DNA from: an uncultured Methylococcaceae bacterium
GTDB taxonomy: Bacteria; Pseudomonadota; Gammaproteobacteria; Methylococcales; Methylomonadaceae
Assembly: GCA_913056195.1 (NCBI GenBank)
Contig: CAJXMF010000006.1
Location: forward strand, 1 to 64,000
DNA: 64,000 nucleotides
Direction: 5' to 3'
The position numbers were made by a program, and so were the translations under genes. Every line of letters begins with the position of its first letter. Within the stretch, counting starts at the first letter, position 1. Below, piece by piece: positions 9,744 to 28,205 of this stretch. The notes below the pieces were generated by a model. That model did not search any database. It was not told the origin of the DNA and saw only the letters and a list, made by a program, of their open reading frames with translations.

Positions 9744-10739
9744 ATGGAAAAGTGTACCTTTCTGAATTTCTTGCCCAAATTCTTTCCACACCGTGTATCC
9801 AAATCCACCGCGCATAACGAAAAGCGCAGTATTTTGCATATGCTTGACCCTATGCCCAACAACAGCCCTTTTGACATCAATATGGCCGTTGATGCCGGCT
9901 TTGATGTCTTAATGCCCTATTCCAATGTCAAGCTGGAAAGTGTCCACGCCCTGACCCAGGACGCCATTTTTTCACGCGGTCCTGGCGGTGAAAAAAAAAC
10001 GGCCATGTTCATTGGCGGCCGTGATATTGGGCTCGCCATTGATATGTTAAATACCAGCAAACAAGCAATGGTTCCGCCTTTTAAAATTGCTGTCATGGCC
10101 GACCCGAGCGGCGCATTTACCACGGCCGCCGCATTAGTCGCGTGTGTTGAAAAAGAGCTGCGGGAAAAACACAACAAATCTTTAAAAGAAAGTAAGGCAC
10201 TGGTTTTTGGTGGCACTGGCCCTGTAGGTCTGGCAACTGCCGTCATCGCCGCACAACAAGGCGCACAGACCACGCTGATTGACCACCTTTCACTGGACGC
10301 CGCACAGGATGCAGCAAAAGAATACGGTCGCCGTTTTAAAGTGGAACTACATGCCGCTGTAGCCGGATCTGATGAGGAAAAAGCTGAAATTATTAGTGAT
10401 GCCGATATTATCTTCTGTACAGCAAAAGCCGGTATTCAGGTTTTAAGCACCGCAGTATTGCAACACGCAAAGCAACTGAAAGTAGCCGGTGATGTCAATG
10501 CCGTGCCGCCTGCCGGGATAGAAGGCATCGACGTAAATGACTTTGGTAAAGCCTTGAAAGGTCTGCCCGACTCACAAAATACCGTCGGCATTGGCGCCTT
10601 AGCGGTAGGCAGTGTTAAATATAAACTACAACATACCCTGCTCAAGTCCATGCTTAAAAGCGACAAACCGCTTTTTCTGGATTTTCGCGATGCGTTTAAT
10701 GAGGCACAGGCCTTGTTTGCTACTGCCGAAGAATCTTAA
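9744..10739 (+). CDS. Second MtdB-like methylene-H4MPT dehydrogenase paralog
   Basis: Same motifs in tandem (NNSPFDINMAVDAGFD, ADPSGAFTTAAALVA, FGGTGPVGLATAVIAAQQGAQTTLIDH, DVNAVPPAGIEGIDVND) plus about 30-aa N-terminal extension; Shine-Dalgarno GGAG precedes the ATG at 9744. Confidence 0.85.
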   Translation: MEKCTFLNFLPKFFPHRVSKSTAHNEKRSILHMLDPMPNNSPFDINMAVDAGFDVLMPYSNVKLESVHALTQDAIFSRGPGGEKKTAMFIGGRDIGLAIDMLNTSKQAMVPPFKIAVMADPSGAFTTAAALVACVEKELREKHNKSLKESKALVFGGTGPVGLATAVIAAQQGAQTTLIDHLSLDAAQDAAKEYGRRFKVELHAAVAGSDEEKAEIISDADIIFCTAKAGIQVLSTAVLQHAKQLKVAGDVNAVPPAGIEGIDVNDFGKALKGLPDSQNTVGIGALAVGSVKYKLQHTLLKSMLKSDKPLFLDFRDAFNEAQALFATAEES

Positions 10740-10816
10740 ATGGGCTGCGTATAAGCATGCGTTAAGCAGCTCGACCGCTTGAACGACAAGTTATAAAAAC
10801 TTACGTGATACACAGC

Positions 10817-11113
10817 TTATTTTTTCAAATATTTCTCAATCTTTAAAGATCCATGAAATATCCCTAATATTTCTACTGAATCTTCTTTAACAAAGTAAGC
10901 AATTCTATAATGACCATCAAGAAGCACTCTAATTTCACCGTCTGGTTCTTTTCTATATTTGTAACCAATTTCGGGAAATGATTTTAAAATTTGAGTTTTA
11001 TCCTATATTCCTTCTACAACTCGCTGTGCCGCTAACGGGTTTTCCTCTGCAATGAAGTCAAATATATCTTTCATTCATGTACTGGCCTCTTCTGTCCATT
11101 TTATTTCTGCCAT
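10817..11113 (-). pseudogene. ParE/RelE-family toxin pseudogene
   Basis: Continuous frame MAEIKWTEEAST*MKDIFDFIAEENPLAAQRVVEGI*DKTQILKSFPEIGYKYRKEPDGEIRVLLDGHYRIAYFVKEDSVEILGIFHGSLKIEKYLKK* with two internal stops (TGA, TAG); directly follows an antitoxin-like ORF. Confidence 0.8.
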
Positions 11114-16334: not shown

Positions 16335-17444
16335 TTACAGCAAATTCAAGGCATTCAAGTCTCCAAATGCTTTTACGATTCGTTTTACCATGTTAGCCTG
16401 ACCGGCACGTTGCCAGACACGCGGATCATAGTATTTCTTATTCGGCGCATCTTCACCCGTCGGGTTGCCGATCTGTCCCTGAAGATAGGCTTCATTCTCC
16501 TTGTAATAATTCATAACACCTTCCCAAGCAGCCCATTGCGTATCCGTATCAATATTCATTTTGATAACGCCGTAACTGATAGATTCGGCAATTTCTTCCG
16601 GTGAAGAACCTGAACCACCATGGAACACAAAATTCAAGGAATTTTCAGGCAATCCATATTTTTCAGAGACGTATTTTTGCGAGTCTCTTAAAATAGTCGG
16701 GGTCAGCTTAACATTACCGGGCTTGTAAACCCCATGAACATTACCGAAAGAGGCAGCAATGGTAAAACGATGGCTCACTTTGCTTAACTGTTCATAAGCG
16801 TAGGCAACATCTTCAGGCTGTGTATATAACATGGATTGATCCATATCGCTGTTATCAACGCCATCTTCTTCACCGCCGGTGCAACCTAATTCAATCTCTA
16901 ACGTCATGTTCATTTTTGACATGCGTTCCAGATATTTTGAGCATATTTCAATATTTTCTTCCAAACTTTCTTCTGAAAGATCAATCATATGCGAACTGAA
17001 TAACGGACGACCTGTCTGCGCAAAGTGTTTTTCACCCGCATCGAGCAGGCCATCAATCCATGGCAGCAATTTTTTAGCGCAGTGGTCCGTATGTAAAATA
17101 ACAGGCACACCATAATGTTCAGCCAGATTATGAACATGCAATGCCGCAGAAATAGCCCCTAATACTGAATTCCGTTGACCTTCAGCCGGCAAACCTTTAC
17201 CCGCATAAAAAGCGGCACCACCGTTTGAACACTGAATAAAAACAGGAGAATTGGCCTGAGCTGCCGCTTCTAATACTGCATTGACAGTATCTGAGCTGAT
17301 GATATTGACCGCAGGTAATGCGCTCTTGTTTTGCTTACAGAATTCGAAAATCTTTTGTACATCATCACCCGTAACGACACCGGGTTTAACAATTTCAGAT
17401 AAATTTTGTGTCATTTTTTGAAATATCCTGATAGAAATAACCAC
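16335..17444 (-). CDS. fba: Fructose-bisphosphate aldolase class II
   Basis: VILHTDHCAKKLLPWIDGLL, ELGCTGGEEDGVDN, FVFHGGSGSSPEEI, GVIKMNIDTDTQWAAWEGVM. Start probably the internal ATG about 17414 (MTQNLSEIVKPGVV). Confidence 0.95.
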   Translation of the reverse strand: MVISIRIFQKMTQNLSEIVKPGVVTGDDVQKIFEFCKQNKSALPAVNIISSDTVNAVLEAAAQANSPVFIQCSNGGAAFYAGKGLPAEGQRNSVLGAISAALHVHNLAEHYGVPVILHTDHCAKKLLPWIDGLLDAGEKHFAQTGRPLFSSHMIDLSEESLEENIEICSKYLERMSKMNMTLEIELGCTGGEEDGVDNSDMDQSMLYTQPEDVAYAYEQLSKVSHRFTIAASFGNVHGVYKPGNVKLTPTILRDSQKYVSEKYGLPENSLNFVFHGGSGSSPEEIAESISYGVIKMNIDTDTQWAAWEGVMNYYKENEAYLQGQIGNPTGEDAPNKKYYDPRVWQRAGQANMVKRIVKAFGDLNALNLL

Positions 17445-18805: not shown

Positions 18806-19516
18806 TTAGCCTTTCTTTTTTCGCAGGTATTTCTCAACACCCGTTACATTTTCTTCAGCTAACTTACGAGTACGAACGACTTGCTTTGCCAGATATTTTG
18901 CAACACCTGTTGTCGGTAAAGATTGTTGTTTTTTTTCTAAATATTTAGAAACACGGGTTTCTTTAGGTTGCTTTTTAGCTAAATATCGTTCAACACGTGT
19001 TACACCTTCTGCAGCTTCAGTACTCGCTCTAGGCGCTGCAGGCGCTGGTCTTGAAGCTCTGGCACGAGGCGCTGATGGCGTGCCTGCTTTTTTCCGATAA
19101 AAAAAGAAACCGATAACAGCCAATGCCACAACAGCAATCAGCATCGTTTGATCTGAACTTTCTTGTTTTGTTGCGACTGAACTTGTCGAACCAGATGAGG
19201 ACCCGGCAGAAGATGAAGTCGACCGTGTAGAAGCAGATGCTATTTTTTCGGCTTTATGTTTATAGTTTGTATCTTGATATACAACTTTAGGCTTAAAAGC
19301 CGCTGCGGGATAATTCGGGTCAGCTTCTGTTTGACCAGAAGAAAATGATGATGCTGTTGACTCAGAATGTTTATAACCCGAATCACTATATAAAACCTTA
19401 GGTTGAAAATCCGCTGCGGGATATTCATCTGATGTTGCCTGAGCCATTAAAGGACTCACTAACAACATAGCTGCTAATGTGCCTTTTGTAAGAAATAAGT
19501 TTTTCACCATATTCAC
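18806..19516 (-). CDS. Predicted single-TM protein with periplasmic YPAAxFxPKVxYxDxxYKH repeats and cytoplasmic TxVxKYLxKK repeats
   Basis: Signal peptide or anchor (LAAMLLVSPLMAQA); two YPAA[D/A]F[Q/K]PKV[L/V]Y.D..YKH units; Ser-rich linker; TM (TMLIAVVALAVIGFFFYRKK); four tail motifs TRVERYLAKK, TRVSKYLEKK, TGVAKYLAKQ, TGVEKYLRKK. Confidence 0.85.
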   Translation of the reverse strand: MNMVKNLFLTKGTLAAMLLVSPLMAQATSDEYPAADFQPKVLYSDSGYKHSESTASSFSSGQTEADPNYPAAAFKPKVVYQDTNYKHKAEKIASASTRSTSSSAGSSSGSTSSVATKQESSDQTMLIAVVALAVIGFFFYRKKAGTPSAPRARASRPAPAAPRASTEAAEGVTRVERYLAKKQPKETRVSKYLEKKQQSLPTTGVAKYLAKQVVRTRKLAEENVTGVEKYLRKKKG

Positions 19517-21711: not shown

Positions 21712-22257
21712 TCATTCCATGTTAGCGTGTCTTTCTCTCATTTTTTCTTCAGGAATGCCTTTCTCGTGTATCAAATGTGAAACGATTGCTTCAAGAAAAC
21801 ACAAGGTCGATAATTCAAAAACAGTCCCCATTGGCATACCTTTAACTTTTTTATAAAGCTCCTGTTTACCAATCTGGAATACGCCATCCGCCAAATCACC
21901 AATAGTTGATTCCTTTCTGGATGAGATGAGTACCACTTTAGCGCCAACATCTTTGGCTTTTTTAGTGAAAGCGACTAATTGTTCAGTTTCACCTGAACCC
22001 GAAATAACAATCAACAGATCACCCGCCTGAATACTCGGTGTTACGATTTCGCCAACCATATAGACAGTGTACCCGCTATGCATTAAACGCATACCTAAAA
22101 AATTTCCGACTAATTTTGAACGGCCGGCACCTGAAATAAAAATATGATTAGCATTGTCAAACATTTCAACCAGCTTGTCAGCATAGGTTCCATCCGTTGC
22201 TTCAAGGATTTCTGAAATTTTATCAATGACTAAACGTTGATGTTTATGTTGATCCAT
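21712..22257 (-). CDS. hxlB: 6-phospho-3-hexuloisomerase
   Basis: SIS domain: FISGAGRSKLVGNFLGMRLMHSGYTVYMVGEIVTPSIQAGDLLIVISGSGET; adjacent to hps; ends MRERHANME. Confidence 0.95.
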   Translation of the reverse strand: MDQHKHQRLVIDKISEILEATDGTYADKLVEMFDNANHIFISGAGRSKLVGNFLGMRLMHSGYTVYMVGEIVTPSIQAGDLLIVISGSGETEQLVAFTKKAKDVGAKVVLISSRKESTIGDLADGVFQIGKQELYKKVKGMPMGTVFELSTLCFLEAIVSHLIHEKGIPEEKMRERHANME

Positions 22258-23217: not shown

Positions 23218-24432
23218 TTAAGCCGCCTTCTTTTTATTTAAATATTTTTCTACACCCGTCAGATTCTCGTATTTTTTAACAGCATCTTCCGCAACCTTTT
23301 TCGCTAAATACGCCTCAACCCTCGAAGTCCTGTGTGACTCTTGAGGTGCATTTTCAGCTTTTTTAGCCAGATATTGTTCGACCTTAGTGCGGCTATTCAC
23401 ATTATCATTTTCAACATCGGCATTTTCAGAGGCTACTTCCTCTTCCTGTGAAACGCTTTTATCTTTTCTGACCTGGTTTTTCAAGATAGACAGCTTTAAC
23501 AGATACTTTGAAACACGGCTTAATTTTGAGCGTTGTACGCCCAGCGTTTCTTTCCTGACCAAATACTTATCAACGCCTGTATTGTGCTCTTCAGCCGGTT
23601 TTGATAACGACCGCATCACAACATACTTTTCCACGCGCGTCAGCAGTGGCTTAGGCGAACTTGCTTTCTTCAACAGATATTTATCAACGCCTGTTCTACT
23701 CTCAGTGCCCGATAGTGTTCTTTTTTTCGCTATATATTTAGTAACACCTGTCGCAACATGTTTTTGCTCAGACTCGGCCCGCGCTAAATATTTCGCAACA
23801 CCGGTTGCCAGTGGATCAAACACGGGCTCATCCTGTGGAACCTCTTCAATTTTTTTAGGCTGCTTTGCTGCTTCAGCCTCTGCGAGCCTGTATTTTTCTG
23901 CTAAAGCCTCTGCAGCCTGTTTTTTTATGGCGATTTCTTTCTGCCACAATACATAACCGACGCGTGTTGTTGGAATTTTTGCCTTGGCCTCTTTATCCTT
24001 TTTACGCACATATAATGCCACGCCTGTCGGAATATTTTTTGGCTTCAAACTTTGTTTAACAACGTATTGCTCAACTCGGCTTATCCCTGGCTTTTCCTTT
24101 TTTAAAACGCCCTGCTTAATAATGTATTTAGAAACACGTGTTGTCGCGGGCTTATCCGACAAAATACGCTTTGCAACATATTTTGCCACCCCCGTTGCAG
24201 GGTCATGGGGATGCTTTTTTAAATATTTTTCGACTCGGGTCACTGCAGATTTGCTTTCAAGGTACTTTTCTACACCCGTTCTAGACGATACTTCTTCTAC
24301 TGCTTCAGATTCTTGTCCACCTACCGCATTGTCATCAAAAGATAATTTTGGCAACACCCCAATCAAGCCTTTTATAAAACTATTTTTTTTCACCTGTAAC
24401 TCCTTTGCCTTTTTCACATTCTCGAACACCAC
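23218..24432 (-). CDS. Soluble basic protein with about 16 TxVxKYLxKK repeats
   Basis: 404 aa, no TM or signal; repeats TGVEKYLESK, TRVEKYLKKH, TGVAKYVAKR, TRVSKYIIKQ, SRVEQYVVKQ, TGVALYVRKK, TRVGYVLWQK, TGVAKYLARA, TGVTKYIAKK, TGVDKYLLKK, TRVEKYVVMR, TGVDKYLVRK, SRVSKYLLKL, TKVEQYLAKK, SRVEAYLAKK, TGVEKYLNKK. Confidence 0.9.
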   Translation of the reverse strand: MVFENVKKAKELQVKKNSFIKGLIGVLPKLSFDDNAVGGQESEAVEEVSSRTGVEKYLESKSAVTRVEKYLKKHPHDPATGVAKYVAKRILSDKPATTRVSKYIIKQGVLKKEKPGISRVEQYVVKQSLKPKNIPTGVALYVRKKDKEAKAKIPTTRVGYVLWQKEIAIKKQAAEALAEKYRLAEAEAAKQPKKIEEVPQDEPVFDPLATGVAKYLARAESEQKHVATGVTKYIAKKRTLSGTESRTGVDKYLLKKASSPKPLLTRVEKYVVMRSLSKPAEEHNTGVDKYLVRKETLGVQRSKLSRVSKYLLKLSILKNQVRKDKSVSQEEEVASENADVENDNVNSRTKVEQYLAKKAENAPQESHRTSRVEAYLAKKVAEDAVKKYENLTGVEKYLNKKKAA

Positions 24433-24578: not shown

Positions 24579-24606
24579 AAAAGGGCGAAATAAATTTCGC
24601 CCTTTT
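24579..24606 (-). terminator. Intrinsic terminator downstream of hps copy 2
   Basis: AAAAGGGCGAAA TAAA TTTCGCCCTTTT; minus-strand stem followed by TT/T-rich sequence. Confidence 0.75.
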
Positions 24607-25339: not shown

Positions 25340-25670
25340 TGTTACAGTTATTATTTAGACATCATACTTAACTAGCTGCAAACTCTAAATCAGTTCATAG
25401 CTCAATGTCAATTTACAAGCCTGATTTTTTACCAGATTTGTCGTCTCAGCCTGCATTGTACAGTCCAAAGACTTGTTAAATATGGAGTTTTTGTAAATAT
25501 CATGAACTGAATAAAAAAACCCATGTTGTTAATTTTAAGGCCTGGTTTTGAATTCATCATATCAAGCTGCTCTATTTTCTCATACTTTTCAACTATGAGT
25601 GATGGTACCATTCAACAAACGCCCAAAAATTAAGCTAAAACTATCATATTTTCTAATCACCGAAAACCCT

Positions 25671-26495
25671 ATGACTCCTTTTTCCGACATTAAAGGTCTG
25701 ATTATTGATATGGACGGGGTACTGTGGCATGGCTCACAGCCTCTTCCAGGTCTTAACGACTTTTTTAATACCTTACGCCAACAAGCCATGCCTTTTGTTC
25801 TGGCGACCAATAACGCCAGTCTTACGGCGGCTCAATATATTGCAAAGCTGGCGTCCTTCAACATCACAGTCACAGAACAAGAGATTCTGACCTCTGGCAT
25901 TGCCACAGCCTGCTATCTGGCCGAACACCACCCACCCGAATTGACACCTGTTTATGCTATCGGTGAAAGCGGCCTGTTAGAGCCTTTAGTTGAGCAAGGA
26001 TTTGTGCTGACCGGCCTGGACGATATTCGCTCTGAAGTCAATAACACCGGGCCAGACATTGTCGTGTCCGGGCTCGATAGAACATTGACCTGGCAAAAAC
26101 TCTCCACAGCGACCCTCAATATCCGTGCCGGCGCACATTTCTATGGCACCAATGGCGATACATCCTTACCCACTGAAAAAGGCATTACCATTGGTAATGG
26201 TTCCATTTTGCAAGCCTTGGAGGCTGCCAGCGGCCAAAAACCCACGATTATTGGCAAACCCGAACCTGTCATGTACCAACAGGCCATGAAAGTACTGGGC
26301 ACCAGTCCGGAACAAACCCTGGCCATTGGCGACCGCCTGGACACCGACATTCTAGGTGCCGTCAATGCCGGAGTTCGCAGCATTCTGGTTTTATCCGGCA
26401 TTTCCAGCGAAAAAGATTTACAATCTATCAGCTATTCACCCACGCTCATCATGCAAGATATTCGTGACATAACGTTAGCCCTTAAAAACCTGTAA
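25671..26495 (+). CDS. HAD-superfamily IIA hydrolase (NagD/phosphoglycolate phosphatase-like)
   Basis: IKGLIIDMDGVLWHGSQPLPG, FVLATNNASLTAAQY, IIGKPEPVMYQQAM, AIGDRLDTDILGAVNAGVRSILVLSG. Start set at internal ATG 25671. Confidence 0.9.
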   Translation: MTPFSDIKGLIIDMDGVLWHGSQPLPGLNDFFNTLRQQAMPFVLATNNASLTAAQYIAKLASFNITVTEQEILTSGIATACYLAEHHPPELTPVYAIGESGLLEPLVEQGFVLTGLDDIRSEVNNTGPDIVVSGLDRTLTWQKLSTATLNIRAGAHFYGTNGDTSLPTEKGITIGNGSILQALEAASGQKPTIIGKPEPVMYQQAMKVLGTSPEQTLAIGDRLDTDILGAVNAGVRSILVLSGISSEKDLQSISYSPTLIMQDIRDITLALKNL

Positions 26496-26511
26496 CCTGA
26501 GGAGAATCCGC

Positions 26512-27501
26512 ATGAAGAAATTCATCAACGACACCGAAACCCTGCTCGATGAAAGTATTGTCGGCTTCGCCAAAGCCCATAGTGATATTGTTCAACTTCA
26601 TACAGAACCCACGTTTATCCGCCGCAACAGCGATACCAAAGCCGACAAAGTTGTCATCATTTCGGGTGGCGGTTCCGGTCACGAACCGCTACATACAGGC
26701 TTTGTCGGCCAAGGTATGCTTGATGCGGCCTGCCCCGGTCAAATTTTCACCTCCCCGACACCGGATCAGATGCTGGCTGCGGCTGAAGCCACCGAAAATG
26801 GGGGCGGGGTATTATTTATTGTTAAAAATTACGCCGGTGACGTGATGAATTTTGAAATTGCCGCCGAAATGCTCGACATACCCAATGAAAGTGTATTGGT
26901 CGATGATGACGTTTCCCTGCCTAAAGATCACAGCACGGGCCGACGCGGCGTTGCCGGCACCTTAATCGTCGAAAAAATTGTCGGTGCAGCCGCCGAACAA
27001 GGCTACGACCTGGCCGCCTGTAAAGCATTAGGCAATAAAGTGGTCAACGCGACGGCATCCATGGGCGTTGCTTTGAGCAGTTGCACCGTCCCGGCACTGG
27101 GCAAACCCACCTTTGAATTGGCCGACGACGAAATGGAGATGGGTGTCGGCATCCATGGTGAACGTGGCCGCGAAACCCTTAAACTGGCTCCGGCCACAGA
27201 AATTGTCAAGCATCTGACCCAAGCGATTGACGAAGACCTGAGCCCCGAAAAAGGCCAGCGCATTTTATTGCATGTGAATGGATTTGGCGCAACGCCGCTG
27301 CTGGAATTACATTTAATGTATGACCTGGCCGCCCAACATTATCAACAGCAAGGCATCGAAATATGCCGCTCCCTGGTTGGCACATTCACCACATCGTTAG
27401 ATATGGCAGGCTGTTCGATAACCGTCACCCTGCTGGATGATGAAATGTTGTCATTATGGGATGCGCCCGTCAACACAGCCGCATTACGCTGGAAAATTTA
27501 A
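26512..27501 (+). CDS. dhaK: Dihydroxyacetone kinase subunit DhaK
   Basis: KVVIISGGGSGHEPLHTGFVGQGMLDAACPGQIFTSPTPDQM, VDDDVSLP, GVGIHGERG. Confidence 0.93.
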   Translation: MKKFINDTETLLDESIVGFAKAHSDIVQLHTEPTFIRRNSDTKADKVVIISGGGSGHEPLHTGFVGQGMLDAACPGQIFTSPTPDQMLAAAEATENGGGVLFIVKNYAGDVMNFEIAAEMLDIPNESVLVDDDVSLPKDHSTGRRGVAGTLIVEKIVGAAAEQGYDLAACKALGNKVVNATASMGVALSSCTVPALGKPTFELADDEMEMGVGIHGERGRETLKLAPATEIVKHLTQAIDEDLSPEKGQRILLHVNGFGATPLLELHLMYDLAAQHYQQQGIEICRSLVGTFTTSLDMAGCSITVTLLDDEMLSLWDAPVNTAALRWKI

Positions 27502-27516
27502 CCTCATCCTGAAAAC

Positions 27517-27544
27517 GGCAAGCGCCGCGCTATGGGCGCTTGCC
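27517..27544. terminator. Hairpin between convergent dhaK and dhaL
   Basis: GGCAAGCGCC gcgctatg GGCGCTTGCC, perfect 10-bp stem. Confidence 0.55.
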
Positions 27545-27569
27545 AGATTGCAATCACAGCTTTACATCA

Positions 27570-28205
27570 TCACACAGATTGCTCAATCACCTTGCTAACA
27601 GCCTTTATCATCAATTGCGCCGTCTGCGCTCCGGCATCGATATGGCCTTTGCTGCGCTCACCCAGGAATGACGCACGCCCTTTCGTCGCAATCATATCGC
27701 GTGTCGCCTCTACGCCTTGTTCAGCAACCGCATTGATTTCGGCCAGCAATGTTTTTAAGTCCAGCTGCTGAGCCACGCCTTTCTGTAACGTTTCCGCCAC
27801 CGGCACTAACACATCGAGCATGGTTTTTTCCCCGACATCCGCTCTGCCCCGTTTCTTGATCGACTCGACGCCGGCCATAAACGCCTCGGCAAATACAGCG
27901 GCATCAACCTCTTTGCCCTTAGCTGTCTTCGCCATCGTCACCAGAAAACTACCATATAAAGAGCCTGATGCACCGCCAATCGTGGACATGACAATCATGC
28001 CCATTTTCTGCCAGGCCGATGGCCAATCAAGACCGACTAATTCATCCTGTTTCTTACGCAGCGCCTCAAACCCCCGCTGTAAATTATAGACATGATCGCC
28101 ATCACCGATTTCCTGATCCAGCGCCGTGACCTGCTCGGCATTATCATTGATAATCTGTTCCATTGCGGCAATCATTTCGGGCAAAAGAGATGTTTCTATG
28201 CTCAT
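27570..28205 (-). CDS. dhaL: Dihydroxyacetone kinase subunit DhaL
   Basis: LDQEIGDGDHVYNLQRG, TIGGASGSLYGSFLVTMAK, GRASFLGERSKGHIDAGAQTAQLMI. Confidence 0.92.
   Translation of the reverse strand: MSIETSLLPEMIAAMEQIINDNAEQVTALDQEIGDGDHVYNLQRGFEALRKKQDELVGLDWPSAWQKMGMIVMSTIGGASGSLYGSFLVTMAKTAKGKEVDAAVFAEAFMAGVESIKKRGRADVGEKTMLDVLVPVAETLQKGVAQQLDLKTLLAEINAVAEQGVEATRDMIATKGRASFLGERSKGHIDAGAQTAQLMIKAVSKVIEQSV

Follow-up and report, generated by a model that had tools for sequence, protein, structure and literature searches.

CP12, a small disordered protein of the Calvin cycle, is a partner of sugar-phosphate enzymes, and CsoS2 and CcmM are bacterial multivalent repeat proteins encoded together with enzymes of carbon assimilation. 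Disordered linkers follow a common plan, in which helices of about ten residues are set in disorder (PMC11570498). EPYC1, CsLinker and PYCO1 are mostly disordered, carry short helices at regular intervals and are linked to a carbon-assimilating enzyme (PMC11570498, PMC10288592). They are in these respects like P1, a protein encoded in the window (the whole analysed stretch of 64,000 nucleotides from an uncultured Methylococcaceae bacterium), which shares a repeated motif with a second protein of the same gene cluster, P2. The pair differs from the EPYC1-type linkers in being bacterial, in including a membrane-anchored partner with the same motif, in having its motifs set closer together (mostly 13-22 residues), in its candidate client and in concerning formaldehyde instead of CO2; no sequence relation of P1 or P2 to EPYC1 or CsLinker was found. 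From CsoS2 and CcmM they differ in motif and architecture: Pfam and NCBIfam gave no match to either, the neighbouring genes are hps, phi, tkt, tal and fba, no shell-protein gene occurs among the named genes of the cluster, and no Rubisco gene lies beside the P1/P2 operon. P1 is distinguished from CP12 by the lack of a Pfam match, by the absence of cysteine and by its many repeated motifs. On architecture and genome context, P1 and P2 are best read as belonging among the multivalent linker scaffolds, EPYC1-like in logic and unrelated to it in sequence. Searches of Pfam and NCBIfam with E-values up to 10 gave only chance-level matches for the motif proteins, the P1 profile matched PDB sequences only weakly (mostly myosin), and we found neither a family model nor a paper on P1 or P2, nor, in a literature search, any report of a scaffold or metabolon for the RuMP pathway or of an Hps bound to the membrane.

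The reading frame to which the earlier note had drawn attention is confirmed; it is encoded by the minus strand, which that note did not say. Translation of P1 probably begins at the internal GTG codon (Table 1), since it is preceded by AAAGGAG-N6 and the homologues begin with MKKNS. The two hps genes that flank P1, as had been noted, are one duplication, with 99.8% identical DNA over 653 bases. A terminator-like hairpin followed by a T run, which was recognised by eye and was not among the hits of our scan, separates hps copy 1 from P1 and suggests that P1 may have its own promoter. Both P1 and P2 are encoded inside the hps-phi-tkt-tal cluster. Genes for a HAD hydrolase and a split dihydroxyacetone kinase (dhaK, dhaL; window 25599-28205) adjoin the RuMP cluster here, and do so in both families of bacteria in which we found the motif.

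Table 1. Coordinates of P1, P2 and the surrounding features of the RuMP cluster in the window
Feature	Position	Strand	Remarks
fba (fructose-bisphosphate aldolase)	16335..17444	(-)	
tal (transaldolase), directly downstream of P2	17513..18499	(-)	
P2, between tkt and tal	18806..19516	(-)	236 aa; same motif as P1
tkt (transketolase), directly upstream of P2	19610..21595	(-)	
phi (6-phospho-3-hexuloisomerase, SIS domain)	21712..22257	(-)	
hps copy 2, downstream of P1	22261..22908	(-)	TIGR03128 over cut-off; PF00215
P1 open reading frame, soluble, mostly disordered	23218..24432	(-)	opens at 24432; 404 aa
P1 from likely start, GTG 24393	23218..24393	(-)	about 391 aa
Terminator-like hairpin + T run, GGGCGAAATTTATTTCGCCC-TTTTTT	24580..24606	(-)	read by eye
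3-hexulose-6-phosphate synthase gene, hps copy 1, upstream of P1	24677..25324	(-)	TIGR03128 over cut-off

P1 contains 15 copies of [TS][GRKS]VxxY[LVIM], with TxVxxY[LVIM] as the core, and one degenerate copy (TRVGYVL, residue 156), so that the count of about 16 given in the earlier note was right. The copies are spaced by 13-22 residues, at or below the 20-120 residues of the search criterion for Rubisco linkers (PMC11570498), except for one gap of 44 residues and one of 74; the degenerate copy and a long helix lie within the latter. Among 2000 shuffled versions of P1 the mean number of motif copies was 0.017 and the maximum 1. Searched as a DNA pattern in the bacterium's own genome, the motif gave 23 sites, of which three genes account for 18, whereas its reversed control gave 5, and a stricter form gave 89 matches versus 1 for the control in 13 related genomes. 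The positions of T, V, Y and L in the motif show a dN/dS of 0.025, versus 0.157 elsewhere, in 40 close pairs, with a small bias from picking the positions by a motif match in one member of each pair. Chance and low complexity as sources of the motif are ruled out by the shuffles, the reversed-pattern controls and dN/dS. The second position of the motif had been said to fall into two classes, TGV and TRV/SRV; such a division is seen locally, yet it does not hold as a general split, and is mostly a local feature, because G dominates across 891 motifs from 72 homologues (G 69%, S 13%, R 8%, K 6%). A second short conserved stretch, LEGEFIPAxE, is found in the C-terminal part of P1 in several genera (L064, L068, L070, L071, L072).

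P1 used as a query against its own genome matches only one other protein, P2, which had been overlooked at first reading. P1 has neither a signal peptide nor a transmembrane helix, as originally stated; P2, with the same motif, has both. It starts with the signal peptide, continues with two periplasmic YPAA-FxPKVxYxDxxYKH segments and a transmembrane helix (residues 120-143), and ends in a tail with four motifs, TRVERYLAKK, TRVSKYLEKK, TGVAKYLAKQ and TGVEKYLRKK, at residues 173, 187, 203 and 225. The tail is predicted to be cytosolic, because basic residues follow the transmembrane helix, in line with the positive-inside rule. A separate small periplasmic protein (P5; L174:287-766, L175:8386-8712) has 2-3 copies of a P2-like YPA--FQPKVVYxD segment and none of the cytosolic motif, and it may bind the same periplasmic partner as P2. 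A pattern search for motif proteins in the own genome returned P1, P2 and a third protein on another contig. This protein, P3, has 4-5 motifs and is encoded outside the RuMP cluster, after pyrC-like genes (L055:16133-16996, on contig C13 of the own genome); it has orthologues in two other loci (L219:7338-8171, L220:6478-7374), ends in a conserved CxAxTxxGxxCRR...CxQHN region and has no match in Pfam.

AlphaFold models of P1 and P2 have low confidence, as expected of disorder (mean pLDDT 61.9 and 59.7, pTM 0.18 and 0.23, respectively). In these models a helix starts one residue after the T/S at every motif (16/16 in P1, 4/4 in P2), and P1 has in addition a confidently predicted long central helix, residues 157-190. 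Both proteins thus combine at least three TxVxxY[LVIM] motifs with a predicted T/S-capped helix at each of them, and the predicted architecture is one of short helices in disorder.

Within the methanotroph family, searches with P1 as the query matched 117 of 151 genomes and missed 34, while the P2 profile matched 150 of the 151, including all 128 complete genomes, and was found in 29 of 29 genera. Since the P2 profile recovers all but one genome, the gaps left by the P1 query are an effect of sensitivity or correspond to genomes with P2 alone. Gene order was compared in 80 named loci (one of which begins inside P2) from Methylomonas, Methylobacter, Methyloprofundus, Methylovulum, Methyloglobulus, Crenothrix and symbionts of mussels and sponges. 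Wherever the neighbour is visible, the gene before P2 is tkt (64/64 loci) and the next gene after P2 that lacks the motif is tal (77/77). P2 is followed by a P1-type gene in 59 loci, with a gap of 3 nt in most of the 52 measured pairs, which suggests coupled translation of P2 and P1. In the genus of the window P1 has moved and now lies between duplicated hps(-phi) units, and in one genome of another genus hps-phi-tkt-P1 units are repeated in tandem, so that P1 is copied along with the enzymes. In some genera the cluster lacks P1 and has a minimal P2 (163-192 aa, 3-4 motifs), so strong multivalency is not essential. In every readable P1/P2 locus of the family the motif proteins are encoded inside the RuMP cluster. 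In the methanotroph symbiont of Gigantopelta aegis, the P1 gene is split among several reading frames and the first hps copy is short (L058:8992-10048, 10390-10842), perhaps through decay or sequencing error.

The linkage extends beyond this family. A Methylococcus-type genome has P2 relatives in both copies of a duplicated RuMP block, in agreement with the duplication described previously (PMC517821). A second motif-carrying family, probably Methylophaga-like, encodes a different soluble protein (97-187 aa, 4-7 motifs) between hps and tal. Motif matches were obtained in 49 of its 57 genomes, a few of them only in the chemotaxis-type kinase ChpA discussed below; hps and the motif occur together in 48 genomes, neither occurs in 6, and 3 are discordant (Fisher p 5e-6, a value to be read with the caveat that neighbouring genes can drop out together in incomplete assemblies). 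A lack of co-occurrence with RuMP genes had been proposed as one finding that would speak against a scaffold function, and the result in a sample of 369 genomes of the class favours the RuMP link: all 6 genomes in which hps exceeds the cut-off contain the motif, and true motif matches were found in 0 of the other 363, where one further match with E < 0.001 was marginal and aligned to the N-terminus rather than to the motif. The corresponding p-value of 3e-13 (table 6/0/0/363) is uncorrected for relatedness, the six genomes representing three families. Throughout the class sample the motif is therefore absent where hps is absent; the second family has one exception, a 75% complete genome (G526) in which hps is absent and only ChpA gives a motif match. 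It is not present wherever hps is present: the motif protein was found in 0 of 60 genomes of an hps-bearing family, probably Methylophilaceae, and is absent from the enterobacterial hps-phi loci, from which it follows that RuMP enzymes do not need the motif protein.

Repeated capped helices in disorder, occurring in a membrane form and a soluble form, tied to a fixed place among the enzymes of a single pathway and mostly missing where those enzymes are missing, are in our opinion best explained by a docking scaffold. We give a probability of roughly one half to the reading that P1 and P2 form a membrane-tethered multivalent scaffold for formaldehyde assimilation, with RuMP enzymes as its clients. 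Each TxVxxY[L/I/V/M] motif would be a short T/S-capped helix that docks into one site of a partner protein. P2 would present three or four such motifs at the cytosolic face of the inner (probably intracytoplasmic) membrane, while P1 would present 5-16 in solution on flexible linkers, its molecules perhaps joined via the central helix. We infer that together they could gather the entry enzymes of the RuMP pathway, most likely Hps and/or Phi and possibly Tkt or Tal, near the membrane, so that the enzyme cluster would face the compartment in which methanol is oxidised to formaldehyde by methanol dehydrogenase, and that the benefit would be the capture of this toxic compound. In a relative, Hps and Tal rank with the most abundant proteins (PMC8645107), as would be expected of clients; we count this in favour of a scaffold. 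An enzyme scaffold had already been proposed in the earlier note, and this idea gains from the co-occurrence with RuMP genes and from the disorder with repeated short helices, which fits a multivalent linker; against it stand the hps-bearing family without the motif and the presence of the motif in ChpA.

In the second family ChpA, a CheA-type kinase of the Pil-Chp system, carries 4-6 motif copies in a linker between its Hpt domains (L212-L218, e.g. L214:6719-12202). It contains Hpt, HATPase, CheW and receiver domains, its neighbours are pilG/pilH/pilI/pilJ-like genes, and it has only the short motif in common with P1 and P2. Its motif has a family-specific flavour, V[ED]RYIQ, which is the same as in the RuMP-linked protein of the second family and suggests a partner that the RuMP-linked protein has in common with the Pil-Chp system; a model of simple binding to Hps leaves these copies unexplained. 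Given also the hps-bearing family without motif proteins, the partner could be other than Hps or Phi. Direct binding of Hps/Phi is the simplest version of the scaffold, and its main rival is a shared hub outside the RuMP pathway, for instance a polar or membrane organiser, into which P1 and P2, the short protein of the second family, ChpA and P3 all plug. In that case the hub would give the RuMP proteins their place in the cell, or a link to motility signalling, without scaffolding them directly. This reading, which we regard as doubtful and yet as deserving serious attention, would accommodate ChpA, the motifs of P3 outside the RuMP cluster and the single motif copy of a long, acidic second-family protein. 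Against it, strong motif matches within the class are limited to hps genomes, so that a hub of general function would need to be confined to the same lineages, and the methanotroph genomes covered by the motif scans yielded no ChpA copy. The docking scaffold may also be combined with such observations in a more elaborate and rather speculative version, to which we give little credence: the YPAA-FxPKV segments of P2 would dock methanol dehydrogenase/pMMO partners in the periplasm, the cytosolic motifs and P1 would gather Hps/Phi on the opposite side so that formaldehyde is caught at entry, and ChpA of the second family would couple motility to C1 flux by the same docking code.

The presence of one motif in both a membrane anchor and a soluble multimer, and short amphipathic helices on which V, Y and L/I/M recur along a single face, would also be expected if the motifs bound each other, P1 and P2 forming a homotypic, membrane-linked network or filament with a structural rather than an enzyme-binding role. 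We consider this unlikely, as self-assembly alone leaves unexplained why the genes keep a constant position in the RuMP operon, and as the constraint on the T-cap, V and Y next to variable flanks resembles docking into a defined groove. Binding of the basic motifs to nucleic acid, polyphosphate or membrane lipid, which the earlier note had listed as an alternative, is suggested by the P1 of the window, with its net charge of +33, its 16% Lys and the short hydrophobic helices at its N-terminus. Across the motif carriers, with V and Y fixed, the charge ranges from -2 to +41 in 72 homologues (including one P3) and from -3 to +8 in the proteins of the second family, and the motif regions of ChpA are acidic, so that we reject nucleic-acid or polyanion binding as the conserved role; P2, moreover, already has a transmembrane helix. 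We regard this whole group of functions as very improbable. At least as hard to credit is the regulation of RuMP enzyme activity or turnover by P1 and P2, in the manner of CP12 on Calvin-cycle enzymes: a small disordered protein encoded in an operon can act as a regulator, and the minimal P2 suffices in some genera, but a membrane anchor and a motif number that reaches 16 in P1 exceed a regulator's needs.

P2 occurs in every complete genome of the family that we searched and is fixed in the core carbon-assimilation operon, yet we found no description of it. If P1 and P2 are indeed a RuMP scaffold, it would be, to our knowledge, the first native one for formaldehyde assimilation. The hexulose phosphate synthase of Methylococcus was reportedly described, decades ago, as a particulate or membrane-associated enzyme, and P2 would account for this. 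The scaffold would also provide a natural alternative, for synthetic methylotrophy, to the artificial Mdh-Hps-Phi fusions (PMC8879981), and it would hint at how a high formaldehyde flux can be sustained without self-poisoning.
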